From Pseudomonas lundensis (lineage in GTDB: Bacteria; Pseudomonadota; Gammaproteobacteria; Pseudomonadales; Pseudomonadaceae), in assembly GCF_002269125.1 (NCBI RefSeq), contig NZ_NQKI01000016.1, positions 1-64,000 on the forward strand: a stretch of 64,000 bases of DNA, given 5' to 3'. The translations under genes and the position numbers were made by a program. Of this stretch, positions 8,969-64,000 are shown in pieces (within the stretch, counting starts at the first letter, position 1; the number at the start of each line of letters is the position of its first letter). The notes under the pieces were generated by a model. That model was not told where the DNA came from, did no database searches, and saw only the letters and a list, made by a program, of their open reading frames with translations.

Positions 8969-8970
8969 GA

Positions 8971-9225
8971 TTATTTTCCGTCCTCATCCTTGTTGGCTTC
9001 TGCCTGATCACCATCTCGACCATGCCCTCCATGGCCATGTCCAAAAAAATGCATCAAAGGACAAATCAACAGGATCAGATAGGGTAAATAAGGCGAAACA
9101 TGGCTGAAATGTTCCCTGACCACGTAGAAAGCGCTGATCGCAACCAGCATGATCAGTAAGACACCCGTTTTGCTCCTCCAGAAAGACGAAGGAGCGTTTT
9201 CAACCGAATGCTGATGGTTAGTCAT
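8971..9225 (-). CDS. DUF2933 family small membrane protein
   Basis: The protein has 84 residues from the ATG at 9225, which is preceded by a GGGGA ribosome binding site; the longer upstream frame is not supported. It has two hydrophobic segments ([16 protein letters not shown] and [16 protein letters not shown]) and a histidine- and glycine-rich tail with [13 protein letters not shown]2933 proteins are commonly found next to copper and silver resistance genes. The histidine tail may bind metal, but no reaction is known. It sits between the cupredoxin gene and the copper ATPase gene, ending two bases before the ATPase start. Confidence 0.8.
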
Positions 9226-9322
9226 GATGTAGTCCCCACTGTCCTCGCAAAAGTTGCGGTGACGTCTGCGACTGAGAGTAGTCAACGCTCGCTTTGAGGC
9301 GGTGATATCGATCAAGCCACGT

Positions 9323-9859
9323 TTACTTCACTTCAAACTGACCAACCATTCCTGATTGGTAATGACCTGGTACGTTGCAGGCGAACTCCAGCCCAGCGCT
9401 CTTGGTGAACGTCCAAATGAGCTCTTTGGTTGCGCCAGGTTCGATCAAAACACTGTTGGGATCGTTGTGCTCCATCCCGACCATCTTCATTCCTCCCATG
9501 CTGTGTCCCATATCGTTCATGCTTTGCCCGGACCCAATAGGCGTGAGCGTGCCGTTCTGGAACATGGCTGCCATCTCTTTTTGGTGAGCAGCATGTGCAG
9601 CTGCGTTACCAATATTGAATTCATGCAGCAGCGAACCTTCGTTGCGCAGGACGAATCGAACCGTCTCTCCGGGTTTGACATTGATGTTTTTGGACGCGAA
9701 GAAAATGTCGCCCATTTTCACCTCAACGGTGCGGGTAACCTCGGCAGCGGTTCCAGGTTGACCAATGTCATCTTTGCCATGCCCCACACTAGCCATGGCT
9801 GTAGCACCGAAAAATAGAGCCATTGTCGCGATAACAGGGGTACAAAATTTAGCGTTCAT
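9323..9859 (-). CDS. Cupredoxin-domain periplasmic copper protein
   Basis: The protein has 178 residues starting at the ATG at 9859, with GAGG upstream. It has a signal peptide (CTPVIATMALFFGATAMA) and a cupredoxin fold. Likely type-1 copper ligands are visible: His in LLHEFNIG and the Cys-His pair in FACNVPGHYQSGM. A methionine- and histidine-rich insert (MNDMGHSMGGMKMVGMEH) in the middle could bind further Cu(I). It probably buffers or oxidises copper in the periplasm. It is the first gene of the minus-strand unit that continues into DUF2933 and the ATPase. A CopR-like box lies 76 bp upstream of its start, so copper induction is likely. Confidence 0.85.
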   Translation of the reverse strand: MNAKFCTPVIATMALFFGATAMASVGHGKDDIGQPGTAAEVTRTVEVKMGDIFFASKNINVKPGETVRFVLRNEGSLLHEFNIGNAAAHAAHQKEMAAMFQNGTLTPIGSGQSMNDMGHSMGGMKMVGMEHNDPNSVLIEPGATKELIWTFTKSAGLEFACNVPGHYQSGMVGQFEVK

Positions 9860-9934
9860 AGTGACCTCAAGGATGAGCGAGAAAAACACTCGTTATGTTA
9901 AAGCGACTGAGCTGCCAGTTAACTGACCTGAGCA

Positions 9935-9949
9935 CTACATTTCTGTCAG
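9935..9949 (-). promoter_or_regulatory. CopR-box-like site upstream of the cupredoxin-ATPase operon
   Basis: The minus strand reads CTGACAGAAATGTAG, which matches the site at 10511-10525 at 13 of 15 positions. It lies about 76 bp before the start at 9859. I infer binding of the CopR encoded nearby. Confidence 0.7.
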
Positions 9950-10028
9950 TTTTTAAAATAAACAACGGCGTCTAAGCGACGTCGTTTGTAATCGCAATTA
10001 ATTGCGAAAAGCCTTGAAAACAGGATAT

Positions 10029-10382
10029 TTACTGATGGTTTTCTGAAAGCATTAGTTTGTGTTCGCGTTGCATTTGGTTCAAAACGTCATCGACGATTTT
10101 GTCGTGCTTCTCCATCCAGGCGAGATGCTGTTGGGGCGACATTGATGCATCGGGATGGTCTTGATGGAGTTGGCTCATGATCTCGCCAAGCATTTTCATG
10201 TGGTCTGCCATGTGCACATGGCGTTGGCCCGCTGGGGCTTTTTCGGCTTGAATCAGAACGGTTTCCGCTTTATTACGCATGTTTTCCATGCGTTCCATCA
10301 CTCGATCTCCGCCGCCCTCAGCCCAAGCCGAGGCCGAGAGCAGGATCGAGCCAACCAGAAACACGGTTTTGAGATAGCTCAT
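10029..10382 (-). CDS. Small periplasmic protein in the copper cluster, unknown function
   Basis: The protein has 117 residues from the ATG at 10382, with AAGGAG upstream. A signal peptide (VFLVGSILLSASAWAEGGG) is followed by a helical domain rich in Met and His (MADHMKMLGEIMSQLHQDH, MQREHKLMLSENHQ). It may bind copper in the periplasm, but I do not recognise a named family. It is divergent from copR and shares with it an upstream region holding a CopR-like box, which supports copper control. Confidence 0.65.
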   Translation of the reverse strand: MSYLKTVFLVGSILLSASAWAEGGGDRVMERMENMRNKAETVLIQAEKAPAGQRHVHMADHMKMLGEIMSQLHQDHPDASMSPQQHLAWMEKHDKIVDDVLNQMQREHKLMLSENHQ

Positions 10383-10510
10383 GGGAAGCTCCTTGATAGG
10401 GATGGTGTCCGACTCCTGAGGATTTTTCTCTCTGGAGAGTCGGATGAGCACTTGACGGTGTTCATGGGCAAACTCTAGACAACGCTTGCTGACATCAACC
10501 TGAAGCCAGA

Positions 10511-10525
10511 ATTACATTTCTGTCA
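10511..10525 (+). promoter_or_regulatory. CopR-box-like site between copR and the divergent periplasmic gene
   Basis: The plus strand reads ATTACATTTCTGTCA, the reverse complement of TGACAGAAATGTAAT, which is the form of the known Pseudomonas copper box. It lies 66 bp before copR and 129 bp before the divergent gene at 10382, so it could serve both, including copR autoregulation. Confidence 0.75.
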
Positions 10526-10590
10526 GTTTCTGGTTGGCTGGGCTAATTCGTTGCAAACTCAGCCCCATCATCACTTCGAGAGCCACTCCT

Positions 10591-11280
10591 ATGAGACTGC
10601 TGGTTGCGGAAGACGAACCGAAAATAGGTATCTACTTGCAACAGGGCCTTACTGAGGCTGGGTTCAACGTTGATCGTTTCACCAATGGTACTGAGGCCCT
10701 GCAACACGCCTTGAGCGAAGCGTATGACCTGCTGATTCTGGACGTTATGATGCCCGGTCTGGATGGGTGGGAAGTGCTTCAGAAGGTGCGTTTGGCAGGG
10801 AAAGATGTACCGGTGTTATTTCTGACTGCGCGAGACCGTGTTGAAGATCGCGTTAAGGGGCTTGAGCTCGGAGCGGATGATTACCTGATCAAGCCCTTCG
10901 CATTTTCTGAATTGCTGGCCCGCGTCAGAACACTGCTGCGTCGCGGTAATGGCGCACCTTCGCCAACCAATTTGAAACTGGCCGACCTTGAGGTTGACCT
11001 GCTCAAACGCAGGGCCATTCGGGGGGGGAAACGCATAGACCTGACGGCCAAAGAGTTTGCGCTGCTGGAGTTGCTGCTCCGTCGCCGGGGCGAAGTGCTG
11101 CCGAAGTCGCTCATCGCCTCGCAAGTTTGGGACATGAATTTCGACAGCGATACCAACGTAATCGAAGTTGCGGTGCGCAGGCTCAGGGCGAAGATTGATG
11201 ACAGCTTTGAGGTCAAGCTGATCCACACCGCACGTGGTATGGGCTACATGCTTGATGCTCCGGATTCGGAGTCAAAATGA
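10591..11280 (+). CDS. copR: Copper response regulator CopR (OmpR family)
   Basis: The 229-residue protein starts at the ATG at 10591 ([11 protein letters not shown]); the upstream open frame is not coding-like. The receiver domain has the acidic pair EDE near residue 8, the phosphoacceptor Asp51 in [10 protein letters not shown], and the Lys in LIKPF. The C-terminal winged-helix DNA-binding domain of OmpR type includes [10 protein letters not shown] and [16 protein letters not shown]. It activates copper-resistance promoters when phosphorylated by CopS. The stop codon overlaps the copS start (ATGA at 11277-11280), so translation is coupled. Copper specificity rests on the neighbouring genes and on three matching boxes. 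Confidence 0.92.
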
Positions 11281-12665
11281 ACCGTCTGTCCCTGACTACA
11301 CGCATGAGTCTAATGTTCATGCTTGCGGTAACAGCTGTGCTCACGGTCGCCGGAGTCAGCTTTAACCACCTCAGCCAGCATCACTTCAAAATGTTGGATC
11401 AAGAGGCTCTAAACGAAAAACTCCACTCAACCCAGAGAATCCTGGGGGAGCTGAAGAGTACCGATCAATTCGGCGAGTTAAAGCCCGAGTTACAGGCTCT
11501 GCTCGGGGCTCACCGTAATTTGACAGCCGTCATCCTAGACGATGACGGGAGGCTACTTTTCGCTGACCCAGGGCCAGTCAATGTTCCGGAGGAGTTCCTC
11601 ACGACCACCAACAATAATTTTTGGGAATGGCAGAACCAAGAGCAGATGTTCCGGGGCTTGACTGCTCAAGCGATGGTGACCGGTCGGGACAAGCCGCTGA
11701 CCGTGATCTTGGTTTTTGATGTTACTGAGCACATGTTTTTCTTCGAGACGCTCCAGCGATGGTTCTGGATAGGGCTGGTGATCAGCGCGCTCGTCAGTGT
11801 GGGGCTGGGCTGGTTGGTTGCCCGCAGTGGCATGCGTCCTATTCGTCAGGTGACCATGGTCGCTGCGTCGATGTCGGCCAAATCACTTAAAGAGCGCATT
11901 CCATTAGCGTCTGTTCCAAAAGAGCTTCAACAGATGGTGTCGTCGTTCAACGCGATGTTGTCACGTCTGGATGATGCTTTTGTCCGGTTATCAAATTTCT
12001 CTGCCGACATTGCTCACGAACTGCGCACACCGGTCAGTAATCTGATGACCCATACCGAAGTGGTGCTCTCTAGAAAAAGGGATATTGAGGACTACGAAGA
12101 CAATCTGTATTCGAATCTGGATGACTTGAAGCGTATGTCTCGGATGATCGACGACATGCTCTTTCTGGCTAAATCTGACAACGGCCTAATCCCCCATGAG
12201 AACAAACCGATAGACCTATTGGAGGTCGTGGAGAAGCTGCTTGAATACTACCGCCTGCTGGCAGATGAGCGCGGCATCAACCTGACGGTTTCAGGTGGAG
12301 GGAGTGTTCGGGGCGACGTACTAATGCTGCACAGAGCTATCTCGAATCTGCTTTCTAATGCGCTGCGGTACACCCCGGAGGGGAGGACCATCAATGTCGA
12401 TATCCGACAGAGAAGTACCTCGACATTTGTGGTCGTGGAAAACCCAGGAGAAACCATTGCACCCGAACACCTTGAAAAGCTCTTCGATCGATTTTATCGC
12501 GCGGATCCGGCACGCCGTGAAGGGAGCCCCAGCAACGCTGGACTGGGGCTCTCAATTACGCGGTCGATCGTAGAAGCCCATGAAGGCAAGATCTGGTGCA
12601 CCTCATCCAATCGAAAAACAGCCTTCCATATGGAATTTCCTAATGCCGGATCGAAATGTGCCTAG
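11277..12665 (+). CDS. copS: Copper sensor histidine kinase CopS
   Basis: The 462-residue inner-membrane kinase has an N-terminal helix ([18 protein letters not shown]), a periplasmic sensor region of about 130 residues and a second helix near residue 165 ([20 protein letters not shown]). A HAMP linker, an H-box [14 protein letters not shown] with the phosphoacceptor His near residue 247, and an ATPase domain follow ([31 protein letters not shown]). Its length fits the CusS/CopS/IrlB heavy-metal kinase family. It pairs with CopR through a four-base overlap. A strong hairpin lies just after the stop. Confidence 0.92.
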
Positions 12666-12680
12666 CCTCGCTCAGGCGCT

Positions 12681-12716
12681 GTCTTGGAGCAAAGGTCGCG
12701 GCCTTTGCTCCAAGAC
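12681..12716 (+). terminator. Perfect 15-bp hairpin after copS
   Basis: Arms GTCTTGGAGCAAAGG and CCTTTGCTCCAAGAC pair perfectly around a six-base loop, 16 bases after the copS stop. There is no run of T after it, so it may act as a processing or RNA-stability element and not as a classical terminator. Confidence 0.6.
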
Positions 12717-12822
12717 GGATTGACCGAAAGGCTTCAGAGAGAAAGCCAAGGTAACGCACATCGGGAAAATAAAAAGCCACGATGACAACCCTCAATTCTG
12801 GACCAGAGGGCACGCGCAAAGC

Positions 12823-12837
12823 TTACTGAAATGTAAT
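12823..12837 (+). promoter_or_regulatory. CopR-box-like site upstream of copCD
   Basis: TTACTGAAATGTAAT differs by two bases from TGACAGAAATGTAAT, the complement of the site at 10511-10525. It lies 188 bp before copC, so the copCD transcript should have a long leader. Confidence 0.7.
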
Positions 12838-13024
12838 CGAATGGTCGGCAGTCATGTGGCATCGTGTCCTAGCTCTATAACGCGGTCATCCTGATCCACT
12901 ACCTGGGTTCAGTACGCGGCATACGCTTGGTATTCGCTTGTGGTTTTAACCGGAATTGAGAAGTAAAACCAGATCTCCCCCCACCCAACCTCGAACCAAC
13001 AGCTTATGCTGTGAGGAGTCTTGC

Positions 13025-13408
13025 ATGTCATTCTTTAAAACTACTACCGTAGTTGCTGCACTTACCGCCGGTTTGCTCGTGAGCGCTATCGCTCAGGCGC
13101 ATCCAAAGCTGATGTCTTCGACCCCTGCGGACGGCTCGACGTCTGCGGCACCTTCCAAGATCGAGCTGCACTTCTCGGAGAACCTCACGACTCAGTTCTC
13201 GGGAGCGAAACTGATCATGACTGACATGCCGGGTATGCCGAATTCACCTATGGGCGTTAAGGCTGGTGTCGCAGGCGGCGACGATCCGAAAATGATGGTT
13301 ATCACGCCCGCCGCTCCGCTAACCACTGGTACTTATAAGGTCGAGTGGCGTGCGGTCTCTTCCGACACTCATCCCGTCACTGGCAACTTCTCTTTTAAAG
13401 TGAAATGA
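13025..13408 (+). CDS. copC: Periplasmic copper-binding protein CopC
   Basis: The 127-residue protein starts at the ATG at 13025, after GTGAGGAG. It has a signal peptide cut before His in AQAHPKLMSS, so that His1 supplies the Cu(II) site together with the DTHP segment near the C-terminus. A methionine-rich Cu(I) region, MTDMPGMPNSPMG, lies in the middle of the beta-barrel. It carries copper in the periplasm and hands it to CopD, which follows after three bases. The multicopper oxidase CopA and outer-membrane CopB, which usually precede copC in Pseudomonas cop operons, are absent from the window. Confidence 0.92.
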   Translation: MSFFKTTTVVAALTAGLLVSAIAQAHPKLMSSTPADGSTSAAPSKIELHFSENLTTQFSGAKLIMTDMPGMPNSPMGVKAGVAGGDDPKMMVITPAAPLTTGTYKVEWRAVSSDTHPVTGNFSFKVK

Positions 13409-13411
13409 TCC

Positions 13412-14350
13412 ATGAGCGACTCAATCAACATCGCCGTTCGTTTTGCTCTTTATATGGACCTCATGCTGCTGTTTGGATTGGCCATTTTTGGTTTGTACAG
13501 CCTTAGGGGAAAAGAGCGAGTGTCCGGCGCCGTCTTGAACTTTGAGTCGCTCATTTTCGGCACAGCAGTTATTGGTGTGCTTCTGTCTCTTATCTCTATG
13601 CTTTTACTTGCTAAAGCAATGAGCGGTGTTTCAGAGTTTAGTGAGCTTCATCGTCACATTTTTGAGATGGTCATCACGGGGACCGACGTCGGGCTCATGT
13701 GGATGGTCCGAATAGCTGCCCTGGTTCTAGCGGGTATCGGCTTGACGCTAAACAAACGCTTTCCGACCCTCAGCTTGTGGGTGGTTACCTTGTGCGGTGC
13801 GATCGCGCTAGCCACCCTCGCCTGGACTGGGCATGGCGCTATGGATGAAGGCGACCGGCGTTACATACATTTCGCCAGCGACATCTTCCACCTGTTCGCA
13901 GCAGGAGGCTGGCTGGGCGCTCTGGCGGCATTCGCTTTATTGCTACGTACGAAGGTACTCAATGGCGAACAAGAGGTGCGAATTCTCTCTCGAGTGCTTA
14001 CTGGGTTTGAATCAACCGGTGCATTGATTGTAGTGAGCCTAGGCATTACCGGCATAGTAAATTATCTATTCATTGTAGGCCCAACACTAAATGGTGTCGT
14101 GTTTAGCACTTATGGTGCACTGCTTTGTTTGAAAATTTTACTATTTGCAGCAATGCTTGTATTAGCCACGATGAACCGGCTCCACTTGAGTCCACTTTTA
14201 GAACGATCGATCAAAAGCGGAGAATACACTGTCGCCGTTAATTCTTTGCGACGCAGCATGGCCATAGAGTTCTCAGTAGCGATAATAATAGTGTGCCTGG
14301 TCGCCTGGCTAGGAACCTTGAGCCCAGAGATGGATATGGGCACCGTATAG
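13412..14350 (+). CDS. copD: Inner-membrane copper transport protein CopD
   Basis: The 312-residue protein has about eight membrane helices and matches the CopD/PcoD/YebZ family. Histidine and methionine residues in and near the helices ([32 protein letters not shown]) are the likely copper ligands. It is thought to move copper across the inner membrane together with CopC. Its start lies three bases after the copC stop, so the two form an operon controlled by the CopR-like box upstream of copC. Base use is more AT-rich near the end (14040-14290) than in copC. Confidence 0.9.
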
Positions 14351-17686: not shown

Positions 17687-18256
17687 ATGGGAAAAAGGAT
17701 TGGGTACGCCCGCGTTTCGACCGACGACCAGAATCTGGATCTGCAGCGCGATGTGCTCACCCTGGCTGGGTGCAGCGTGATCTATGAAGAGACCATGAGC
17801 GGCAAGTCTGCGAATCGGCCAGAGCTGGTGCATTGCCTGAAAGCACTTCGCACTGGCGACACCTTGATCGTCTGGCGGCTCGATAGGCTTGGACGATCTT
17901 TACCTGACCTCGTTGGGATCGTAGGTCAGCTGGAGCGGGAAGCGGTGGGATTCGAGTCGATCAATGAGCACATCGAGACCACCAGCGCGGCAGGAAAATT
18001 AATCTTCCATGTGTTTGCCGCCCTGGCCGAGTTCGAGCGCAATTTAATTCGTGAACGCACGAAGGCTGGTTTAGACGCGGCACGTGCTCGCGGCCGAAAG
18101 GGGGGGCGCAAACCATCTCTGGATGAGCTCCAAACCCGTGAAATCAAAGCCCTACTCAGGGACCCGCATATCCATGTGACAGACGTTGCACGCAGATATG
18201 GCATCTCTCGCAGCACTCTATACCGGTATGTCGGCAGCGTCAGACCAGACAGATAA
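17687..18256 (+). CDS. Serine recombinase of the resolvase/invertase family
   Basis: The 189-residue protein has a catalytic N-terminal domain with the active serine in IGYARVSTDDQN (about residue 10). Conserved arginines lie in WRLDRLGRSLPDL, and the long E-helix includes FAALAEFERNLIRERT. A short C-terminal helix-turn-helix (VTDVARRYGISRSTLYRYV) completes the Tn3 resolvase/Hin type. It cuts and rejoins DNA at a res or inversion site. GTGAGGA precedes the ATG. The IS1182-type element starts 250 bp downstream, and no matching transposase is adjacent, so it may be an element-maintenance recombinase or a transposon remnant. Confidence 0.92.
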   Translation: MGKRIGYARVSTDDQNLDLQRDVLTLAGCSVIYEETMSGKSANRPELVHCLKALRTGDTLIVWRLDRLGRSLPDLVGIVGQLEREAVGFESINEHIETTSAAGKLIFHVFAALAEFERNLIRERTKAGLDAARARGRKGGRKPSLDELQTREIKALLRDPHIHVTDVARRYGISRSTLYRYVGSVRPDR

Positions 18257-22073: not shown

Positions 22074-22703
22074 TCAAACCACGTTACTGCATGTCATCTG
22101 ATCGCGAATTTTAAGCACCGTTGTGGTGCTGCAACCTGCATGGCGAGCAGTAGCGCGAATACCCAGACCAACGCTCAGCAGTTCACCGATGCGCTGATGT
22201 AGGTTCTTGTCAGCGGGCCGACCTTTGTAGGCGCCGGAGGCTTTTGCCCGAAGAATTCCCTGGGCCCGACGCTCACGACGTTGCTCGTAGTCCTTGCGCG
22301 CAATAGCAGCCATCATTTCGATCATCATGCCGTTGATCGCGGCCTGCATTCGGTCAGTGAATTCGTCACCAGCCGTGTCTCTCATGCTCTGGTGGCTGGT
22401 CGGAAGATCCAGGGCGACAATACGCAGCCCCTTGGAATCAATCGCAGCCTTGAGTGCCTGCCAATCAACCACCGGCAATCGGGAAAGCCGGTCGATACTT
22501 TCCAGCAGCAAGACATCCCCCTGTTGGGCATCCGATATCAGTCTCAACAGCTCTGCTCGGTCAGTCCTGGCGCCACTGGCGTTCTCGATGTATTGCGCAG
22601 CGATAGCCCTGCCATGGTCGGCAGCGAATTGTTGCAGAGCGTCACGGGCACGGTTGGCGTCTTGCTCAGCAGTGGACGCACGAAGGTAGGCGCGGACAAA
22701 CAT
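22074..22703 (-). CDS. Serine recombinase (resolvase family)
   Basis: The 209-residue protein has the serine recombinase catalytic domain: AYLRASTAEQDANRA with the active serine near residue 10, LLLESIDRLSRL with catalytic arginine, and a long helix (MIEMMAAIARKDYEQRRERR). A C-terminal helix-turn-helix segment includes IRATARHAGCSTTTVLKIRDQ. It resembles solitary plasmid resolvases of the Tn3/ParA group and differs clearly from the recombinase at 17687. Three direct repeats of CGTATCAG lie just upstream of its start (22718, 22746, 22803) and may be its recombination or operator sites. Confidence 0.9.
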   Translation of the reverse strand: MFVRAYLRASTAEQDANRARDALQQFAADHGRAIAAQYIENASGARTDRAELLRLISDAQQGDVLLLESIDRLSRLPVVDWQALKAAIDSKGLRIVALDLPTSHQSMRDTAGDEFTDRMQAAINGMMIEMMAAIARKDYEQRRERRAQGILRAKASGAYKGRPADKNLHQRIGELLSVGLGIRATARHAGCSTTTVLKIRDQMTCSNVV

Positions 22704-53845: not shown

Positions 53846-54038
53846 ACGGACGTTCGTTGGACTGAATTGGGGCTGCGTTTTCGTGATCCGAAAGCCTGTC
53901 CACCTGAAAATCTTTAAAACCGTCACCAGCGGTTCGCTGGGAGAAGGCTTGTGCGCCAAGTGGATGCAAATCCACACCGCCAAGTCCGGAAAATGACTCC
54001 ACCAGTGAAATGCGTCTCAGGTTTTTAGGAGCTTGGTA

Positions 54039-54962
54039 ATGCCTGATATCTATCACTTTTTCCAAATGCTGGTTAACGGCCTCAACGTTGGCAGCACCTA
54101 TGCCCTCATCGCCATCGGCTACACGATGGTGTACGGCATTATTGGAATGATCAACTTCGCCCACGGCGAGGTGTACATGATTGGTTCCTACATCGCGTTT
54201 ATCGCCATTGCCGGACTGACCATGATGGGGCTGGACAGCGTGCCGTTGCTGATGACGGCAGCGTTCCTCGCCAGCATTGTGGTGACCAGTGCCTACGGCT
54301 ACAGCATCGAACGGGTTGCCTACCGTCCGTTGCGCGGCAGCAACCGCCTGATCCCTTTGATCTCTGCCATTGGTATGTCGATCTTCCTGCAAAACATGGT
54401 GCTCTTGTCACAGGACTCAAAAGACAAATCCATCCCGAACCTGATTCCGGGAGGCTTCACCTTCGGGCCGGGTGGCGCGAGCGAAGTGGTTATTTCCTAC
54501 ATGCAGATTGTGGTCTTCATCGTCACCTTCCTGGCCATGCTGGGCCTGACGCTGTTCATCTCCCGTTCACGCTTGGGCCGCGCCTGCCGCGCCTGTGCCG
54601 AAGACATGAAGATGGCCAACCTGCTGGGCATCAATACCAACAACGTGATTGCGCTGACCTTTGTGATTGGTGCTGCTCTGGCCGCCGTCGCGGCGGTTCT
54701 GATCAGCGTGCAATACGGTGTGATCAACCCCAACGCAGGTTTTCTGGTGGGGCTCAAAGCCTTTACCGCAGCCGTGCTGGGGGGTATCGGCAGCATTCCT
54801 GGCGCCATGCTGGGCGGGCTGGTACTGGGTGTAGCTGAAGCCTTTGGCGCTGATATTTTCGGCGACCAATACAAAGACGTTGTGGCGTTTGGCCTGCTGG
54901 TATTGGTGCTGTTGTTCCGTCCGACCGGCATTCTGGGGCGTCCGGAGATCGAAAAAGTATGA
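54039..54962 (+). CDS. livH: Branched-chain amino acid permease LivH
   Basis: This is a 307-residue inner-membrane permease with about eight helices. [20 protein letters not shown] and the EAA-like coupling loop ([20 protein letters not shown]) are family marks. The ATG at 54039 is preferred because AGGAG lies nine bases upstream; a TTG at 54033 is also open. It pairs with LivM, whose start overlaps its stop by four bases (ATGA at 54959). Confidence 0.93.
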
Positions 54963-56215
54963 CTAGGCATCTTAAATCGGCGTTCTTTAGCGCCCTGTTG
55001 GTCTGGGCTGTGGCCTACCCGGTACTGGGTCTGAAACTGACCATCGTCGGCATCAACATTGAAGTTCACAACACCAGCACTTTCACGCTCAGCGTGATCG
55101 CCATCTGTTCGTTGCTGATGTTTGTGCGCGTGTTGTTCAACCAGCAATTGAGCGCTGCCTGGAAAGCTTCGCCCAACCTGCCAAAAGTCCCTGCAAAAGC
55201 CTCAAGCTTTTTGACATTGCCCAGCACCCAGCGCTGGATCATTCTCGGTCTGGTGGTGGTAGCACTGGTGTGGCCGTTCTACGGCTCTCGTGGCGCGGTG
55301 GACATTGCGACCCTGATCCTGATCTACGTGATGCTGGGCCTTGGCTTGAACATCGTGGTGGGGCTCGCGGGCTTACTGGACTTGGGTTATGTCGGCTTTT
55401 ATGCCGTCGGCGCCTACACCTACGCGTTGCTGTCGCACTTTTTCGGCTTCAGCTTCTGGGTGTGCCTGCCTCTGGCGGGTTTAATGGCCGCCACCTTCGG
55501 CTTTTTGCTGGGGTTCCCGGTCCTGCGTTTGCGGGGTGACTATCTGGCCATCGTGACGCTGGGGTTCGGCGAGATCATTCGCCTGTTCCTGCGTAACCTG
55601 ACCGACATCACCGGCGGCCCCAACGGCATCAGCAATATCCCCAAGCCCACGCTGTTCGGATTGAGTTTCGACCGCACCGCTGCCGAGGGCATGCAAACGT
55701 TCCACGAATACTTCGGCATCCCCTACAACTCGATCAACAAAGTAATTTTCCTGTACCTGATCGCGTTACTGCTGGTGCTGCTGGTGCTGTTCGTGATCAA
55801 CCGTTTGCTGCGCATGCCGATCGGCCGGGCTTGGGAAGCCCTACGTGAAGACGAAATCGCCTGCCGTGCATTGGGTTTGAACCCTACCGTAATCAAACTT
55901 TCGGCCTTCACCCTCGGTGCAACATTCGCCGGGTTTGCCGGTAGCTTCTTTGCCGCCCGCCAAGGGCTGGTGACACCAGAATCGTTCACCTTCCTTGAGT
56001 CGGCGATCATTCTGGCTATCGTTGTGCTGGGCGGTATGGGTTCGCAGTTGGGTGTGATTCTGGCTGCCGTGGTGATGATTCTGCTCCCGGAAATGATGCG
56101 AGACTTCAGTGAATACCGGATGTTGCTGTTCGGCGCCCTGATGGTGCTGATGATGATCTGGCGTCCGCAAGGTCTGCTACCGATGCAACGTCCTCACCTG
56201 GAGCTGCGAAAATGA
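54959..56215 (+). CDS. livM: Branched-chain amino acid permease LivM
   Basis: This 418-residue permease has an N-terminal extension of about 100 residues (a DUF3382-like region common in Pseudomonas BraE), then the conserved [20 protein letters not shown] and the coupling loop [20 protein letters not shown]. It forms the channel with LivH. The four-base overlaps at both ends (with livH and livG) show tight translational coupling. Confidence 0.93.
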
Positions 56216-56979
56216 GCCGCGAGATACTGAAAGTCAGCGGCCTGAGCATGCGCTTTGGCGGCTTGTTGGCGGTCAACGGCGTGGGCCTGACCGTGAAGGA
56301 AAAACAGGTGGTTTCCATGATCGGCCCCAACGGGGCGGGTAAAACCACCGTCTTTAACTGCCTGACCGGGTTCTACAAGCCTTCGGCCGGAAGCATTTTG
56401 CTCGATGGCCAGGCGATTGAAGGCCTGCCCGGTCACGAAATTGCCCGCAAAGGCGTGGTGCGCACCTTCCAGAACGTGCGCCTGTTCAAGGACATGACGG
56501 CTGTCGAGAACTTGCTGATCGCTCAGCATCGCCACCTCAACACCAATTTCCTGGCGGGCTTGTTCAAAACGCCAGCCTTTCGCAAAAGCGAACATGACGC
56601 CATGGAGTACGCTGCGTACTGGCTGGACAAGGTCAACCTGACCGAGTTCGCCAACCGCCCGGCGGGCACTTTGGCTTATGGCCAGCAACGGCGTCTGGAG
56701 ATCGCCCGCTGCATGATGACGCGCCCGCGCATCCTGATGCTCGACGAGCCCGCTGCCGGTTTGAACCCCAAGGAAACCGACGACCTTAAGGCGCTGATCG
56801 GTGTGCTGCGTGAAGAGCACAACGCCACCGTGTTGTTGATTGAGCACGACATGAAACTGGTGATGAGCATCTCTGACCACATCGTGGTCATCAATCAGGG
56901 CACACCGTTGGCGGACGGCACGCCGGAACAGATCCGCGACAACCCTGACGTGATCAAAGCCTATTTGGGGGAAGCGTAA
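56212..56979 (+). CDS. livG: Branched-chain amino acid ABC transporter ATPase LivG
   Basis: The 255-residue ATPase has Walker [13 protein letters not shown], signature [14 protein letters not shown], Walker [15 protein letters not shown] and the H-loop EHDMKLVM. It powers import together with LivF, which starts immediately after its stop. Confidence 0.94.
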
Positions 56980-57681
56980 ATGCTGCAATTCGAAAACGTT
57001 TCAACCTTCTACGGCAAGATCCAGGCATTGCACAGCGTCAACGTCGACGTTCGTCAGGGGGAAATCGTGACCCTGATCGGCGCTAACGGTGCGGGTAAAT
57101 CCACGTTGATGATGACCCTGTGCGGCTCACCACAGGCTCAAAGCGGCAGTATTCGTTATTTGGGCGAAGAACTGGTGGGGTTGAGTTCGGCGCAGATCAT
57201 GCGCAAAAGCATCGCTGTGGTCCCTGAAGGACGCCGGGTCTTTGCTCGGCTGACAGTGGAAGAAAACCTCGCGATGGGCGGTTTTTTTACCGACAAGCAC
57301 GAGTATCAGGAGCAAATGGACAAGGTGCTGCACCTTTTCCCGCGACTGAAAGAGCGCTTTACCCAACGTGGCGGCACCATGTCCGGCGGCGAACAACAAA
57401 TGCTTGCCATTGGCCGGGCGCTGATGAGCAAGCCCAAGCTGTTGTTGCTCGATGAACCCTCACTGGGGCTGGCACCCATCATCATTCAGCAGATTTTCGA
57501 CATCATCGAACAGCTGCGCAGAGAAGGTGTGACGGTGTTTCTGGTAGAGCAGAACGCCAACCAGGCCTTGAAAATTGCCGACCGCGCCTACGTGTTGGAG
57601 AACGGCCGGGTGGTGATGCAAGGCACTGGCGAGCAGTTGCTCTGCGATCCAAAAGTGCGCGACGCCTACCTCGGCGGCTAA
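56980..57681 (+). CDS. livF: Branched-chain amino acid ABC transporter ATPase LivF
   Basis: The 233-residue ATPase has Walker A GANGAGKSTLMM, signature MSGGEQQMLAIGRAL, Walker B LLLLDEPSLGLAP and the H-loop position occupied by Gln in VEQNANQALKIA, as usual for LivF proteins. It is the last gene of the operon, before a terminator. Confidence 0.94.
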   Translation: MLQFENVSTFYGKIQALHSVNVDVRQGEIVTLIGANGAGKSTLMMTLCGSPQAQSGSIRYLGEELVGLSSAQIMRKSIAVVPEGRRVFARLTVEENLAMGGFFTDKHEYQEQMDKVLHLFPRLKERFTQRGGTMSGGEQQMLAIGRALMSKPKLLLLDEPSLGLAPIIIQQIFDIIEQLRREGVTVFLVEQNANQALKIADRAYVLENGRVVMQGTGEQLLCDPKVRDAYLGG

Positions 57682-57698
57682 CCCTGCCCGTGACACAA

Positions 57699-57727
57699 GA
57701 ACGGCCCTTCGGGGCCGTTTTCTTTTC
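57699..57727 (+). terminator. Terminator after livF
   Basis: AACGGCCC and GGGGCCGTT pair around TTC, followed by TTCTTTT. Confidence 0.88.
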
Positions 57728-57917
57728 CAGCGGTCATTTCACGCCCGTTGAACAGCCGCTGCTCTGCGCTTATGCATCGACTGCCAACCTGACTGTCAGG
57801 CACATTTCATTTTTTTCAACTGCTCTGTAATAAAACCCGAAGTCGCTTCTCTAGTGAAGTAAGCCGGCAGCCAACACGCGCTGGCCACACTAGAAAACTC
57901 AACCTCGGAGAATCACC

Positions 57918-58103
57918 ATGTCCAACAAAACCACTCGCACTGTATCCGCCGCGGGTGCTGGCACTACCTGCGCGGGCACAGCCAAAACCGACCATCAGGC
58001 CAACGCGTGGAAATTGGTCCCTAAAGGCACGTGCGAGCGCACTGTCAGCACCACCTCCCCGACCGGTTTCGGGCAGTTGACGGCTTATACCGCCAAATCC
58101 TGA
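57918..58103 (+). CDS. Bufferin-like RiPP precursor peptide, no signal peptide seen
   Basis: The 61-residue peptide starts at 57918 after GGAG. The core reads [20 protein letters not shown] followed by LVPKGTCE, the pattern of BufA2-type metallophore precursors (Cys ... NAWKLVP-GTC). Known bufferins carry a signal peptide and act in the periplasm. Here only about 13 polar residues precede the core and no hydrophobic stretch exists, so the product may stay in the cytosol, the start may lie elsewhere, or the export route may differ. Two cysteines (residues 18 and 39) are the likely modification or metal sites. It is followed directly by the MNIO maturase gene. Confidence 0.65.
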
Positions 58104-58119
58104 CAGTCGTCATTGAGCC

Positions 58120-59004
58120 ATGATGATGCACAGCCCGACTGCTTCGCACATCGCGCCTCGTGCGCCCCAGCTTTCGCCACGTGCGGGGCTGGGGCTCAAG
58201 GCCGAGCACTTCAAAGACATTCTGGAGACCCGGCCCGATATCGGTTTCTTCGAAGTTCATGCCGAAAACTACATGGTCGCCGGAGGCCCCTTTCACCATT
58301 ATTTGAGCTTGATTCGGGAGCACTATCCCCTGTCGATCCACGGGGTAGGTCTGTCCATTGGCTGCGAGGGGGTGCTGGATCAAGCCCATTTATTGCGATT
58401 GCGTACCCTGCTCGACCGCTATGAGCCTGAACAATTCTCTGAACACCTGGCGTGGTCCACCCATGGTCAGTGGTTTCTCAATGACCTGCTGCCATTGCGC
58501 TATGACGACGCGACGTTAACGCGGGTCTGTGAGCATATCGATCACGTACAAAACGTCCTGCGACGGCCCATGCTGCTGGAAAACCCGGCAACCTACGTCG
58601 AATTCGATCAGGCCGACTACGACGAAGCTGCATTTATTCATCACGTCATACAGCGCACCGGCTGTGGCCTGTTGCTGGATGTGAACAATGTGTACGTGTC
58701 CTGCATCAATCATCGCCGTGATCCGATTGCCTATATCGACGCCCTGCCATTACAGGCCGTCGGCGAACTTCATCTGGCAGGTTTTGCCGAAGACACCGAC
58801 AGTCAGGGCCAGCGCCTGTTGATCGACAACCATGGTGCAGCCGTTGATAGCGCCGTCTGGGCCCTTTATTGGCAGGTATTGAAGCGTATCGGTCCCATGG
58901 CGACCCTGATTGAACGGGATAATCACCTACCTGCCCTGAACGAGCTGCTCATCGAAGCGCAACGCGCTGATCATATGATTCAGACCTCAAAGGTGCGTGT
59001 ATGA
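58120..59004 (+). CDS. MNIO (DUF692) RiPP maturation enzyme, BufB-like
   Basis: This 294-residue TIM-barrel enzyme belongs to the multinuclear non-heme iron oxidases, which modify cysteines in small peptides (for example to thiooxazoles). Metal-ligand regions are visible: [56 protein letters not shown] and [10 protein letters not shown]. It should act on the peptide encoded 16 bases upstream. Three ATG codons in a row at 58120-58128 leave the exact start open. Its stop overlaps the next gene's start by four bases. Confidence 0.88.
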
Positions 59005-59777
59005 CCTTACAACAGGCCTTCAGCGCCGCCCTGTTCGATCCGCAGTCGAGTTGCCCGCACGGTGTGATTTGCCCTGTTGGCAGTGATGCGTCGAGCCGTT
59101 TTTCCGTGTACCGAAACAACGTACTCAGCGGTTTGATCAACGCCTTGGGCGCCAGTTTTCCGGTGGTTGCCCGCTTGGTGGGAGACGCGCTCTTCCATGG
59201 CATGGCGCACGTGTTCGTGCACAAAAACCCGCCGGACAATCCGGTCATGAGTACCTACGGGCATTGCTTTGCGGAGTTCATTCAAGATTTTGCCCCGGCC
59301 AATAGCCTGCCGTATCTCGCTGATGTCGCACGCTTGGAATGGCTCTGTGTTCAGGCATATCACGCCGCCGATGCCCTGCCTTTGAACCCGCAGGCCCTTG
59401 CGCGGGCATTGGCCAATCCCGCTACCCTGGAACAACTGCGCATGACGTTGCACCCGAGTGTGGCCACCCTGCATTCCCCGTATGCCGTGGCCTCCCTGTG
59501 GATTGCGCACCAGAACAGCGGACACCTTCAGGGACTGGACCCCAGCCAGCCGCAAAGTGCGCTGGTGCTGCGTCAAGGTTTGAACGTAGAAGTGTTTGCG
59601 GTCAGCTCAGGGAGCGTAGCGTTTATTCGACTTTTGAAAACCCACTGCCCTCTTGGTCAAGCTGCTGACAATGCCCTGCACGCCGATCCCGGATTTGACT
59701 TGAGCCAGTGCCTGGCACTGCTCATCAGCATGGGCGCCATCACCGAAGTGCAGCACGCCCATGAGGTAACGTTATGA
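59001..59777 (+). CDS. DUF2063 protein, MNIO partner (BufC/HvfC-like)
   Basis: The 258-residue protein has the N-terminal DUF2063 domain: [37 protein letters not shown] and [18 protein letters not shown]. In MNIO systems this protein presents the precursor to the maturase. The C-terminal half is a less conserved beta-rich domain. Four-base overlaps with the genes on both sides indicate a coupled operon. Confidence 0.85.
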
Positions 59778-60283
59778 ACACGTTTACAGAATATTCCTGC
59801 AGAATCGGCCGTTTATGGGCACATACAACCCGTGCTCTGCAACGCATTCCCCACTCCCTGATAGCGTTAATTGCGCGCTTCTCCATCGCCGCTGTGTTCT
59901 GGAAGTCGGGGCAAACCAAGGTTGAAGGCTTTGCACTGGATGTGGTGTCCGGCACTGTCGAGTGGGGACAACCCCACTTGGCCGATTCAGCGCTGTACTT
60001 GTTCAGCCACGAGTACAAGGTGCCATTGCTGCCTGCGGAGTTCGCCGCTTACGCGGCGACCGTCTGCGAACACCTATTCCCCGTGCTGATTTTGGTGGGC
60101 CTGGCGACCCGCTTTTCAGCGTTGGCGCTGCTGGGCATGACCATGACCATTCAACTGTTCGTTTACCCCGATGCCTACGCCACGCACGGAACGTGGGCCA
60201 CGATTTTGCTGTACCTGATGGCGCGGGGACCGGGCACCCTTTCCATCGACCACTGGCTGGCGCGGCGTTATCGTCAAGGCTGA
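59774..60283 (+). CDS. DoxX-family membrane protein of the MNIO operon
   Basis: The 169-residue protein has four membrane helices with DoxX hallmarks (LIARFSIAAVFWKSGQTKVEG, FPVLILVGLATRFSALALLG). DoxX-like proteins close many MNIO operons and are proposed to handle redox or copper steps at the membrane. It overlaps the DUF2063 gene by four bases and is the last gene of the unit. No clear terminator follows. Confidence 0.85.
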   Translation: MNTFTEYSCRIGRLWAHTTRALQRIPHSLIALIARFSIAAVFWKSGQTKVEGFALDVVSGTVEWGQPHLADSALYLFSHEYKVPLLPAEFAAYAATVCEHLFPVLILVGLATRFSALALLGMTMTIQLFVYPDAYATHGTWATILLYLMARGPGTLSIDHWLARRYRQG

Positions 60284-60544
60284 TCGCAGGTCGAGGCAGT
60301 GCGTTGAAACCAACTCACAAGGTAATCCACCCATATGTGCGTGCGCTTGAGGTCATGACGCAAACGCACTGCACAAGCGCATCAGACCGATCGGTATTGA
60401 GCATGCTGGCATAGGGGATGGTAATAAATTACAAGCGGCCACCGTATTAATGTTGGCGGCGACAAACACCGTCCACAGGGCAAATCAAGGGGCCATGATG
60501 TCAGCAAGACGTCGACATTCACGCACAACGCTTTAGGTACACGT

Positions 60545-60880
60545 CTATTTTTGAGACAGAAAACGCCGAGGTTTTTCTCGAGTTGGGATGCAAACGGCTT
60601 GAAGCACAGCACTTATAAATGCGACCCATCGGACGATATAGTTACCTTCAATAATGACGTTGGAAGAAGGAACGAAATAAATATAACCATGGCGCGCTAC
60701 ATTTAACTGAACCATCCCCCAAAGCATGACCCATACAAAAAACAACCAGAACCGGGCCACTTTAAACCTTCGCCCCGATATCGCTCTGGACGTCGCAAAA
60801 AAAACCAAAAAAACAACAACCGAAGCAAACAAATAGAGCATCGACACAAGGAGCGCGTTATTCATCATTATCTCTGGCAT
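60545..60880 (-). CDS. Small membrane protein, probable immunity protein of the Hcp cassette
   Basis: This 111-residue protein has three predicted membrane helices (LLVSMLYLFASVVVFLVFF, FWLFFVWVMLWGMV, IVRWVAFISAVLQAVC). Its start (60880, or the ATGs at 60868/60865) overlaps the end of the preceding effector-like gene. In T6SS cassettes the gene directly after the effector usually encodes immunity, and a membrane immunity protein fits a membrane-acting or periplasmic toxin. The assignment is by position, not by family. The sequence is AT-richer than the core genes around it. Confidence 0.55.
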   Translation of the reverse strand: MPEIMMNNALLVSMLYLFASVVVFLVFFATSRAISGRRFKVARFWLFFVWVMLWGMVQLNVARHGYIYFVPSSNVIIEGNYIVRWVAFISAVLQAVCIPTREKPRRFLSQK

Positions 60881-61580
60881 CCGAGTACATAGATTTTATT
60901 GTCACACCATTCGATAACACTTCAAATGACAACGCCGTTTTACTCGCATTTTCATACCCTCGCACATAATCGGTGCGCACATACCTGAACAAGCGCCATG
61001 CATCAGGCTTTAATACCAACCGACCGACGCCGTAGGCGGAAAGTCCCAACTCCAAAGTCCCGTAAGCCATATCACCCTCGAAAGCGCTGCCCCCCATTAG
61101 GTTAGCCAGCTTCTGATACCCCTTTCTAAGTGGCCCCTGTGTATCAGAGCGTCCTTCCCATAAATTTCGCCCGTTTTCATACACATTGTTGGCTCCATGA
61201 GCCATCAACGGTCCTCCAGCAAAGACACAGAGCGTACCAGCTGAGGCATAGCACATCCCGGCACCCGCAGCGATCTGAAGTGCCCCTGCGATTGCGGCAA
61301 CACCTTTTTGAGCGACTTCCAATGATTGACTAAGGAGGCTGCTCTGTTCATTTTTTATGTCCTGCAGACCCTCCTCAGGGCTCTTATTTCCCAAAGCAAC
61401 ATCATTAACAATACCTCGTGCGTAATAGGCGACCTCCCGATTGAATTGAATACGCAGTGTGCCATCTTGAATGTGACGAGCGCCAAGTGTGCAGGCTTGT
61501 TTTGCCAAATTCGCCGCGGCCTGACTGACGACCCAGTAATCGCAACTGTCGGGAAAACAGCCATCCTTTGAAGGGCTCAT
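60858..61580 (-). CDS. DUF4225-like protein, candidate T6SS effector carried by Hcp
   Basis: The 240-residue protein has a helical N-terminal region, a central hydrophobic segment (GVAAIAGALQIAAGAGMCYA, GTLCVFAGGPLMAHGANNVY) and a C-terminal domain with DYVRGYENASKTALSFEVL. The central part resembles DUF4225, a family seen in Pseudomonas and enterobacteria next to hcp or vgrG genes. The start codon directly follows the hcp stop, so it is translated with Hcp and may travel inside the Hcp ring. No catalytic motif was identified; pore formation is plausible from the hydrophobic centre. Confidence 0.6.
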   Translation of the reverse strand: MSPSKDGCFPDSCDYWVVSQAAANLAKQACTLGARHIQDGTLRIQFNREVAYYARGIVNDVALGNKSPEEGLQDIKNEQSSLLSQSLEVAQKGVAAIAGALQIAAGAGMCYASAGTLCVFAGGPLMAHGANNVYENGRNLWEGRSDTQGPLRKGYQKLANLMGGSAFEGDMAYGTLELGLSAYGVGRLVLKPDAWRLFRYVRTDYVRGYENASKTALSFEVLSNGVTIKSMYSDARDNDE

Positions 61581-62063
61581 TCACTCATCTCCCCATGAAC
61601 TGTACCCACTGGTCCCTGCCAAATGGTGAGTCCAAGTAATGTAGCGGTATCGAATTGCAAGATGCTCTTGGGGTTCGAAGTCATTTTGTAAAACGGCATG
61701 GGGCATATCGAGTGTGAGATCGACAACAACACCGCCTTTGATTTCAACGGTGTAAAATTTTTCCTGCAATCCAAATGAAGAAATGCGATAAAAGTGAATA
61801 ACGCCGTTTATTTCCTCTCTACTTGAGAGCGCTTGAGCGAGTAAAGGCGACGATTTATCAACATTCTTTGTAATCAGAATGGGTTTATGTGTTGGCCTGT
61901 CAATATTTCCCAAATTGGCCATATTGTGATTGTAAGAAAGCACCATAATTTCATCGGCGTGTGCAGACTGGCATTTATTGCCAATCGATTCTTGGGTTGA
62001 ACACCCCGCCGAAATAAGGCCTTGCGCCTTGCCGATAATGGTCATGTAACCTTGGTTAGCCAT
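61581..62063 (-). CDS. hcp: Hcp-family type VI secretion protein (orphan)
   Basis: The 160-residue protein starts MANQGYMTIIGKAQGLISAG and has the Hcp tube pattern including MVLSYNHNMANLGN, NVDKSSPLLAQALSSREEI and TLDMPHAVLQND. It ends in ITWTHHLAGTSGYSSW, as in Hcp effectors of Pseudomonas. Hcp forms hexameric rings and carries small effectors to target cells. No other T6SS genes are nearby, so it uses an apparatus encoded elsewhere. It heads a compact hcp-effector-immunity cassette with overlapping or abutting genes. Confidence 0.9.
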   Translation of the reverse strand: MANQGYMTIIGKAQGLISAGCSTQESIGNKCQSAHADEIMVLSYNHNMANLGNIDRPTHKPILITKNVDKSSPLLAQALSSREEINGVIHFYRISSFGLQEKFYTVEIKGGVVVDLTLDMPHAVLQNDFEPQEHLAIRYRYITWTHHLAGTSGYSSWGDE

Positions 62064-62249
62064 TCACGCCACTCCTTTTAAATAAGCTGAACAGGCTAAT
62101 TCAAGGGCTTAAGGCGACTTGTAGGACTTCTCCGAAATTTAAAAAGTGGTGTATTCAAGAGCAGTGCCACCCAATAAATCCTTGTTCAGAAGGGGTGATC
62201 TGCCAAGCACCCCTTTACCGTGTCAAGGCGGTTTCGCAAAAGCCGCCGC

Positions 62250-62414
62250 TATCAACGTGTGAACTCGGTCAGCCCCACCGTACTGGAAGAAGCCATGGAT
62301 CATTACGCTCCTTTCTTCCGCGGGTTCAAGCCGGTTCCGGCCGCGGAGGTGGCACTGGCCTACGCAAAAAGTGTTGAAGGTTTGCACACCGGCCAGACGT
62401 ATCAGGTCGGCTAA
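62250..62414 (+). pseudogene. C-terminal fragment of a short-chain dehydrogenase
   Basis: The frame reads VNSVSPTVLEEAMDHYAPFF, then RGFKPVPAAEVALAYAKSVEG and ends TGQTYQV, which is the C-terminal quarter of a classical SDR enzyme (after the catalytic Tyr-Lys). The Rossmann fold and active site are absent. It is a remnant, probably truncated when the Hcp cassette entered. Confidence 0.75.
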
Positions 62415-62473
62415 ACACTTGTGATGGCAGGCGAGCCTGAGTAACGTGGCGGCACATGTCAGGAGACCAGAAG

Positions 62474-63145
62474 ATGCGTGCTGCCCGTTCCTTAGTTTTA
62501 GTCGCCCTGCTCCCCGTATTCGCGGGCTGCCAATTGTTCAACAGCAAACCCGTGGACAGCCATGCGGGTTTGTCGCGTCTGCAAGGCCAGTTGGTTTCGA
62601 CCAACGGTGAGCTGGTCTTCCAGCCCTGTGTCGGACAACAGCGTTACGTCGTGCGTGACAGCGAAAACACCACGCTCGTACAAGATGGCGCAGACATGCC
62701 CATCAAGCCCGAGGCCCTGTTCGCGGACATTCGCGGCCAATTTATCGCCAGCAAAACCGCCGGTTCGAATGGCGAGGTCAACGTCAAACAGCTCTATCGT
62801 CTTGAACGCAGCAGTACGGCCTGCCAAGACCCGAACTTCAAGCAACTGACCGTGCATGCCAACGGCAACGGCCCGGCGTGGGAAGTCCGTGCGGGCAGTA
62901 AGGGCCTGGAGTTGACCCGTGAAGGCCAACCGCCCCTGGCGCTGCCGTATGTGGAAGAGCAAGTCGGTGACGGGCGCTTTTACCTGTCCACCGAAGCCAA
63001 CCATCAACGCATTGAGCTGTGGGTGGCCCCGCAACGTTGCACCGACAGTGTTAATGGCAGCGTGCAACATTTAGGCGCCGAGCTGCGGGTCAACGGGCAG
63101 GTGCAGCGCGGTTGCGGCTATTTCGGTGGCGCGCGCAACGACTAA
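62474..63145 (+). CDS. Predicted lipoprotein, COG3650-like
   Basis: This 223-residue protein starts at the ATG at 62474 (MRAARSLVLVALL), with GGAGACC upstream; the open frame begins six codons earlier. The lipobox VFAGC at about residue 19 predicts lipid attachment. The body is a beta-rich periplasmic domain with paired cysteines (QPCVGQQRY, STACQDP, PQRCTDS, RGCGYFGG) and resembles uncharacterised COG3650 membrane proteins. Function is unknown. Confidence 0.7.
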   Translation: MRAARSLVLVALLPVFAGCQLFNSKPVDSHAGLSRLQGQLVSTNGELVFQPCVGQQRYVVRDSENTTLVQDGADMPIKPEALFADIRGQFIASKTAGSNGEVNVKQLYRLERSSTACQDPNFKQLTVHANGNGPAWEVRAGSKGLELTREGQPPLALPYVEEQVGDGRFYLSTEANHQRIELWVAPQRCTDSVNGSVQHLGAELRVNGQVQRGCGYFGGARND

Positions 63146-63261
63146 TCGACGACTGTTACTGAACATTGCCGTTTAAGCCTGACGGATTTACCCCGAAGCA
63201 GCCTATAATCGCCGGTCTATGGCTGCCGGGGTAAACCTGGCCCCAATACTGGACCACCGTC

Positions 63262-64000
63262 ATGTTACGAATTACCGAACTCAAGTTGCCAATCGACCAT
63301 CCCGAAGAAGACCTGCGCCCTGCCATCGTGCAGCGCCTGGGCATCGCCGATGATGACCTGCTCGATTTCACCTTGTTCAAGCGCAGCTACGACGCGCGCA
63401 AAAAAACCTCCGAACTGTGCTTTATCTACACCATCGACCTGTCGGTGCGTGATGAAGCGCCGTTGCTGCTCAAATTTGCCGATGACCGCAACGTCAACCC
63501 TGCACCGGACGTCAGCTACAAGGTAGTCGGTCAGGCCCCACAGGATCTGAGCGAACGCCCGATTGTGGTCGGCTTCGGTCCGTGCGGCATTTTTGCTGGC
63601 CTGTTGCTGGCTCAGATGGGGTTCAAGCCCATCATTCTTGAACGTGGCCCGGAAGTACGTCAGCGCACCAAAGACACGTGGAGCCTGTGGCGTAAGAACG
63701 TCCTGAACCCCGAATCCAACGTGCAATTTGGTGAAGGCGGTGCGGGGACGTTCTCTGACGGCAAGCTGTACAGCCAGATCAAGGACCCGCAACACCACGG
63801 CCGCAAGGTGCTGCACGAGTTTGTGAAAGCCGGCGCCCCCGAAGAAATCCTCTACGTCAGCAAGCCGCATATCGGGACGTTCCGTCTGACGGGTGTGGTG
63901 GAAAACATGCGTCAGCAGATCGAGGCCCTGGGCGGCGAAGTTCGCTTTCAACAGCGTGTGACCGACGTAATGATCGACAACGGTCAATTGACCGGTGTGG
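63262..64000 (+). CDS. FAD-dependent oxidoreductase, COG2509-like (partial)
   Basis: The first 246 residues are present and the gene runs off the window. After an N-terminal domain of about 90 residues, the dinucleotide-binding motif PIVVGFGPCGIFAGLLLAQ opens the FAD domain. FGEGGAGTFSDGKLYS follows, a signature of these proteins. COG2509 enzymes are uncharacterised dehydrogenases found widely in Pseudomonas. Substrate unknown. Confidence 0.85.
   Translation, partial: MLRITELKLPIDHPEEDLRPAIVQRLGIADDDLLDFTLFKRSYDARKKTSELCFIYTIDLSVRDEAPLLLKFADDRNVNPAPDVSYKVVGQAPQDLSERPIVVGFGPCGIFAGLLLAQMGFKPIILERGPEVRQRTKDTWSLWRKNVLNPESNVQFGEGGAGTFSDGKLYSQIKDPQHHGRKVLHEFVKAGAPEEILYVSKPHIGTFRLTGVVENMRQQIEALGGEVRFQQRVTDVMIDNGQLTGV

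Follow-up and report, generated by a model that had tools for sequence, protein, structure and literature searches.

An in-frame deletion in the precursor gene of a Buf1 bufferin operon of Pseudomonas lundensis, a probable loss-of-function allele

Background

The closest described systems to the locus presented here are the bufferin operons, which encode exported copper-binding peptides with cysteine-derived thiooxazoles. In Buf1 bufferins the first and the last of the four cysteines are joined by a disulphide and the modification falls on the central pair, the authentic DUF2063 partner proteins accompany precursors with a signal peptide, and preliminary data indicate that this signal peptide belongs to what BufB-BufC recognises; the smallest Buf1 proteins are described as likely truncated (PMC12452194). 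In Microbulbifer the recognition domain of the partner protein has been modelled to bind the leader (PMC12538549). In a related system, EGKCG, a precursor with one repeat was left unmodified while a precursor with two repeats was modified, and single alanine changes before the core were all tolerated (PMC13097082). The sigma-F site of bufferin operons in Caulobacter has the sequence GTAACC-N16-CGAA (PMC3511200). Apart from the remark on truncation, nothing about a leaderless Buf1 was met in the literature searches and in the parts of these papers covered here.

The DNA analysed in this study, hereafter the window, is a stretch of 64,000 nucleotides from Pseudomonas lundensis (assembly GCF_002269125.1, contig NZ_NQKI01000016.1, positions 1 to 64,000). 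It contains a bufferin operon with a short and apparently leaderless precursor, which was compared with genus and phylum collections holding one genome per species.

Results

The operon occupies positions 57918–60283, and all four genes, encoding the precursor, an MNIO maturase, a DUF2063 partner and a DoxX protein in that order, are located on the forward strand. The precursor gene (57918–58103, 61 aa) has a ribosome-binding site, GGAGAA (57907–57912), ahead of its ATG and its product, which contains two of the four Buf1 cysteines, matches DUF2282 (PF10048, E = 4e-13, 49.6 bits, cut-off 22.4), the match covering only profile positions 16–50 of 53. The maturase (58120–59004, 294 aa) is of the BufB type, as seen from its matches to PF05114 (E = 8.3e-102) and to the BufB model NF050167 (375.1 bits, cut-off 310). 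The partner protein (59001–59777, 258 aa) is of PME-type 1 with a helical domain and an RRE-like domain; DUF2063 (PF09836, E = 5.6e-24) was found at residues 3–94, and the NCBIfam HvfC model stayed below its cut-off (48.8 versus 142 bits). The last gene (59774–60283, 169 aa) encodes a DoxX-family membrane protein (Pfam DoxX, 4.8e-16, 59.6 bits, cut-off 23.6) and scored below the cut-off of the NCBIfam HvfX model (42.5 versus 80 bits).

With the gene order bufA-bufB-bufC followed, as is often the case, by doxX, and an MNIO of the bufferin-maturase type, the locus is a Buf1 (DUF2282) bufferin operon, bufABC-doxX. This agrees with the first-pass annotation, made from the sequence alone, which had proposed a bufferin-like operon in which the four genes follow each other with four-base overlaps. 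The genes, their order and two of the overlaps (59001–59004 between the MNIO and DUF2063 genes and 59774–59777 between the DUF2063 and DoxX genes) were recovered, while the precursor and MNIO genes turned out to be separated by 16 bp. No PDB sequence was matched by the partner protein in a phmmer search. Among PDB structures its AlphaFold model (mean pLDDT 94.0) best matched one chain of the TglHI complex (8hci_A, 8hi7_A), which we take to be TglI, and NGO1945 (3dee); such matches would be expected of a DUF2063-RRE protein.

The absence of a hydrophobic signal peptide, pointed out in the first-pass annotation, was confirmed by Kyte-Doolittle analysis. The best 12-residue mean in the precursor product is 0.88, showing no strongly hydrophobic N-terminal segment, while among 109 relatives the same measure taken over the 45 residues before the first cysteine, a stretch that may take in a few codons ahead of the true start, has a lowest value of 1.41 and a median of 2.07. 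When analysing the region upstream of the ATG at 57918 a TAG was identified in the precursor frame at 57891–57893, and the eight codons in between contain no ATG, GTG or TTG. All three forward frames upstream were read, ruling out an upstream start or a frameshift that would restore a signal peptide.

The closest relative found in the genus sample of 398 genomes (G387, also L003), with an MNIO that is 91% identical, carries a full-length precursor gene, and the alignment of the two genes contains one internal gap, in frame, of 123 bp or 41 codons. The gene in G387 starts at the same ATG and has a ribosome-binding site with identical bases, the upstream DNA and the tail are nearly identical in the two genomes, and only one of the first ten residues differs. 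The deletion junction is situated at 57946–57951, where the break point can be placed anywhere in a 4-bp repeat, CGCC (57947–57950; equivalent k = 29–33). A blastn comparison with G387 over 10 kb (54001–64000) resulted in two blocks (95.6% and 93.4% identity) that adjoin solely at the junction, overlapping there by the CGCC; inside the blocks there are small gaps between genes. The deletion fuses residue 10, where the signal peptide starts, to the residues right after the second Buf1 cysteine, and what is lost compared to G387 is the signal peptide together with the first two of the four cysteines. According to the G387 alignment and PMC12452194, the remaining Cys18 (codon 57969–57971) is the counterpart of Buf1 cysteine 3, which belongs to the modified central pair, and Cys39 (codon 58032–58034) that of cysteine 4, the disulphide partner of the lost first cysteine.

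Full-length precursors are also present in four further genomes (G243, G343, G195 and G131), for which the difference to the window is 117 bp and not 123 bp, since the signal-peptide region of their precursors has two residues fewer. The full-length Pseudomonas bufferin operons, among them those of G387, of Pseudomonas bubulae (L032, the nearest named genome among the matches listed) and of others, have the same four genes and the same start region as the window, but their precursors consist of 100–102 aa with a signal peptide and four cysteines, compared to 61 aa and two cysteines. The transport genes upstream of the operon, presumably for branched-chain amino acids, are common to the window, G387, the four genomes named above and P. 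bubulae. As judged from these alignments, the signal peptide is missing because of an in-frame deletion at a microhomology, and none of the causes suggested at first (a product working in the cytosol, another route of export or a wrongly placed start) fits. The peptide passes the DUF2282 cut-off but lacks two defining features of Buf1, the four cysteines and, with the hydrophobic segment deleted, the N-terminal signal peptide, and by its sequence it is best called a Buf1 deletion derivative.

The four-cysteine motif was found in all of the 109 relatives read (99 distinct precursors), and in none of them is the part with the signal peptide and the first two cysteines missing; these relatives, the 29 best loci besides the window and 80 among the matches listed, were chosen for similarity and are partly non-independent. 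A profile search of the genus found DUF2282 in 234 of the 398 genomes and, taking the best E-value per genome among the matches listed, that of the window (4.0e-12) was the weakest, the next weakest being 3.9e-20. The phylum sample gave 139 DUF2282 matches in 125 of 397 genomes. All but one (138 of 139) begin at profile position 1–3, the window's alone beginning at 16, and the stop-to-stop frame with the match is 69 aa long in the window and at least 89 residues for the other 138; no second case of a shortened DUF2282 precursor was seen among these 139 matches.

Searches of the genome of the strain revealed one MNIO (at E <= 0.001) and one DUF2282 match over the cut-off. There was no second precursor over the cut-off, the three further DUF2282 matches all falling below it (E = 0.067, 0.51 and 0.56), and the lost 123-bp piece was not found elsewhere in the genome, where the search gave only three weak matches (E = 0.165 to 0.39). 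A place on contig C39 that occurs in both lists of weak matches was rejected as a precursor: its frame of 78 residues, read on the strand of the match, has three cysteines and is without the Buf1 tail motif.

The state of the maturation genes was examined at columns conserved to at least 95%, defined from those of the 109 relatives that had a long enough match (107 for the maturase, 104 for the partner and 98 for DoxX), and no departures were found in the maturase (0 of 89 columns), the partner (0 of 33) or DoxX (0 of 43). The dN/dS between the window and G387 is 0.145 for the maturase, 0.187 for the partner and 0.288 for DoxX. For the residual precursor it is 0.074 (3 nonsynonymous and 11 synonymous differences), and most of the divergence of the precursor from G387 may predate the deletion. 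Amino acid changes polarised with four outgroups indicated similar rates in the window and G387 (6 and 4 changes, respectively, in the maturase, 3 and 6 in the partner and 2 and 3 in DoxX). Counted against the outgroups, the window has slightly more nonsynonymous differences than G387, with four out of four outgroups for the maturase and for the residual precursor and with three out of four for the partner; this small excess in the raw counts could reflect a slight relaxation. The excess aside, neither the conserved columns nor the branch rates gave a clear sign of relaxed selection in the maturation genes. A seemingly broken maturase in one relative (L017) was dismissed, the reported TGA being the stop just ahead of the true start.

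Upstream of the precursor gene an ECF-type promoter-like motif, TGTAAT...TCTCTAG, was identified on the forward strand (57826–57854). The relatives mostly have GTAAC-N18-TCTA, and at the fifth position of GTAAC, where C is usual, the window carries a T. The pattern GTAA[CT]-N18-TCTA is present in 58 of 66 distinct Pseudomonas upstream regions (window included), always with a spacing of 18, and is missing in the other eight; its fifth base is C in 56 cases and T in two, the window and one other. In 200 mononucleotide shuffles the pattern, which had been picked after inspecting the regions, was found 0.3 times on average and at most 4 times. In the genome of the window TGTAAY-N13-17-TCTCTAG has one match, the site at 57826–57854. 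By analogy with the Caulobacter site, an ECF-type promoter is likely to be located upstream of the precursor, and to judge from its bases the GTAAT copy in the window may be a weaker one.

Some Buf1 operons are expressed in response to metals through an ECF sigma factor, and NrsF is the anti-sigma family of bufferin operons elsewhere. No match to it was found in eight genomes of the genus, including that of the window; the Caulobacter control was detected. In line with the first-pass annotation no adjacent ECF sigma factor gene was seen among the reading frames inspected around the operon, but since NrsF has no match in any of the eight genomes the absence of a neighbouring sigma gene is not peculiar to the operon in the window.

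The window also holds a separate copper-resistance block, noticed already in the first reading of the sequence and here located within 6632–14350, which encodes a YHS-HMBD P-type ATPase, a DUF2933 protein, a plastocyanin-like protein, a response regulator, a CusS-like sensor kinase, CopC and CopD and is adjoined by a gene for a beta-propeller protein at 5435. The best plasmid match of positions 1–24000 is a Pseudomonas veronii plasmid (95.2% identity over 44%), a resolvase gene is located at 17687 and a frame at 22074 resembles another resolvase. The plasmid match and the resolvase suggest that the copper block was horizontally acquired. The bufferin operon itself (57918–60283) gave no megablast match in 72,556 plasmid records. 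The idea that the copper island has made the bufferin dispensable was considered and found no support, as the P-type ATPase of the island has a 69% identical homologue in G387, where the precursor is intact.

Downstream of the operon, on the reverse strand (60545–62063), genes were found for an Hcp/TssD-type protein (61581–62063), a DUF4225 protein (60858–61580) and an overlapping small protein (60545–60880), which may together be an orphan type VI effector-immunity set. G387 has homologous DNA, and blastn gave no match to this module in the regions compared of G243, G343, G195, G131 and P. bubulae. In the same five genomes the DNA of the bufferin operon (57947–60349) is 69–71% identical to the window, compared to 86–87% for the upstream and 77–81% for the downstream genes, P. 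bubulae being nearly identical to G343. Going by its low identity relative to the flanks, the bufferin operon is fast-evolving or exchanged.

Discussion

From the comparisons above we consider it quite likely that the window harbours a loss-of-function bufferin allele, in which a probably recent in-frame deletion of 123 bp in the precursor gene of an ordinary Buf1 operon has led to loss of its function. The deletion probably arose between the short repeats and, since the maturation genes look intact, probably recently. The resulting product of 61 aa, being without a signal peptide, would stay in the cytosol. As the signal peptide presumably contributes to recognition by BufB-BufC, the complex would recognise this product badly if at all. 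The peptide could bear a single thiooxazole at most, on its central cysteine, in place of two, and with the first cysteine gone the outer disulphide would be unable to form. Lacking export, a second thiooxazole and the outer disulphide, such a peptide would provide no periplasmic copper buffering, and the maturation genes would be left without a proper substrate while still undecayed.

Some observations speak against a loss of function. The deletion is in frame, and the start, the ribosome-binding site, the spacing to bufB and the open frame have all been kept; as a third of random deletions are in frame, this preservation gives weak support for a retained function. The low dN/dS of the residual precursor (0.074) points the same way, with the reservation that its divergence from G387 may mostly be older than the deletion. 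The tolerated alanine changes in the EGKCG system may, by analogy, mean that recognition is forgiving, which would also count against the loss; the available part of PMC13097082 describes no deletion of a whole leader in that system. Furthermore, the allele is represented by one assembly only, consisting of 111 contigs and with a contamination estimate of 2.8.

The latter leads to the alternative that survives best, though we regard it as unlikely, namely that the organism has a full-length precursor with four cysteines and that 123 bp were dropped by an assembly or sequencing error. It draws on the single assembly, on the intact appearance of the maturation genes and on the lesion being absent from every other genome in the genus and phylum samples, and the undecayed machinery is easier to reconcile with a recent loss or an assembly error than with an old loss. 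Against such an error, the repeat shared at the junction spans just 4 bp, which we judge insufficient for repeat collapse of the usual kind, and the 10 kb compared with G387 fall, small intergenic gaps aside, into two blastn blocks that meet exactly there.

Less probable again is that the short precursor has retained a function as a cytosolic bufferin with two cysteines, still modified by BufB-BufC and acting as an intracellular copper buffer or signal. In line with such a function are the open frame with its intact ribosome-binding site, the maturation genes, which are intact and under constraint, the conserved tail and the one central cysteine that is left. However, the precursor has lost its entire leader, the partner for the disulphide and one cysteine of the modified pair, authentic DUF2063 partners otherwise occur with signal-peptide precursors (PMC12452194), and there is no parallel among the 139 DUF2282 matches of the phylum. 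The cytosolic function put forward in the first-pass annotation is in this sense conceivable as a residual role, if an unlikely one, whereas a natural leaderless type is contradicted by the relatives. A particular form of such a retained function, to which we give the same slight chance, is a mini-bufferin in which BufB-BufC would put one thiooxazole on Cys18 in spite of the missing signal peptide, yielding an intracellular copper ligand; if true, this would be a cytosolic product from a system otherwise described as periplasmic. Finally, the idea that the start is wrong and that an in-frame start further upstream supplies a signal peptide can for practical purposes be discarded, given the in-frame TAG at 57891–57893 with no start codon following it and the use of the same ATG and ribosome-binding site by the full-length gene of G387.

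Reading the short precursor as a deletion product removes an apparent exception, as the combination of a leaderless precursor with a DUF2063 partner then represents no new class. Should the allele be real, it would offer a natural test of whether the signal peptide of bufferins doubles as the recognition leader for BufB-BufC, because, next to intact enzymes, the precursor retains the start residues, the tail and one central cysteine and has lost nothing but the leader and its first half. The case also calls for caution: a comparison with close relatives should come first when a leaderless RiPP precursor looks like a new type.

When compared to known systems, the operon has the same order of precursor, DUF692/MNIO, DUF2063 and DoxX genes as the Buf1 operons of Caulobacter, with which it also has the DUF2282 precursor tail and a GTAAC-type upstream motif in common (PMC12452194, PMC3511200). 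It differs from them in its precursor, where the signal peptide and the first two cysteines are missing, in the genome having no NrsF match and in the downstream promoter-like block, which is TCTA in the window and CGAA in Caulobacter (PMC3511200). The gig (gold-induced genes) operons, another related system, are bufferin operons according to PMC12452194. The MNIO precursors of the TIGR04222, adjamnio-1, adjamnio-2 and adjamnio-7 types are also without a Sec signal peptide but belong to other precursor families, and TIGR04222, adjamnio-1 and adjamnio-2 pair with partners of PME-type 2 (PMC12452194), whereas the operon in the window combines a DUF2063 partner of PME-type 1 with a precursor that has the DUF2282 tail.
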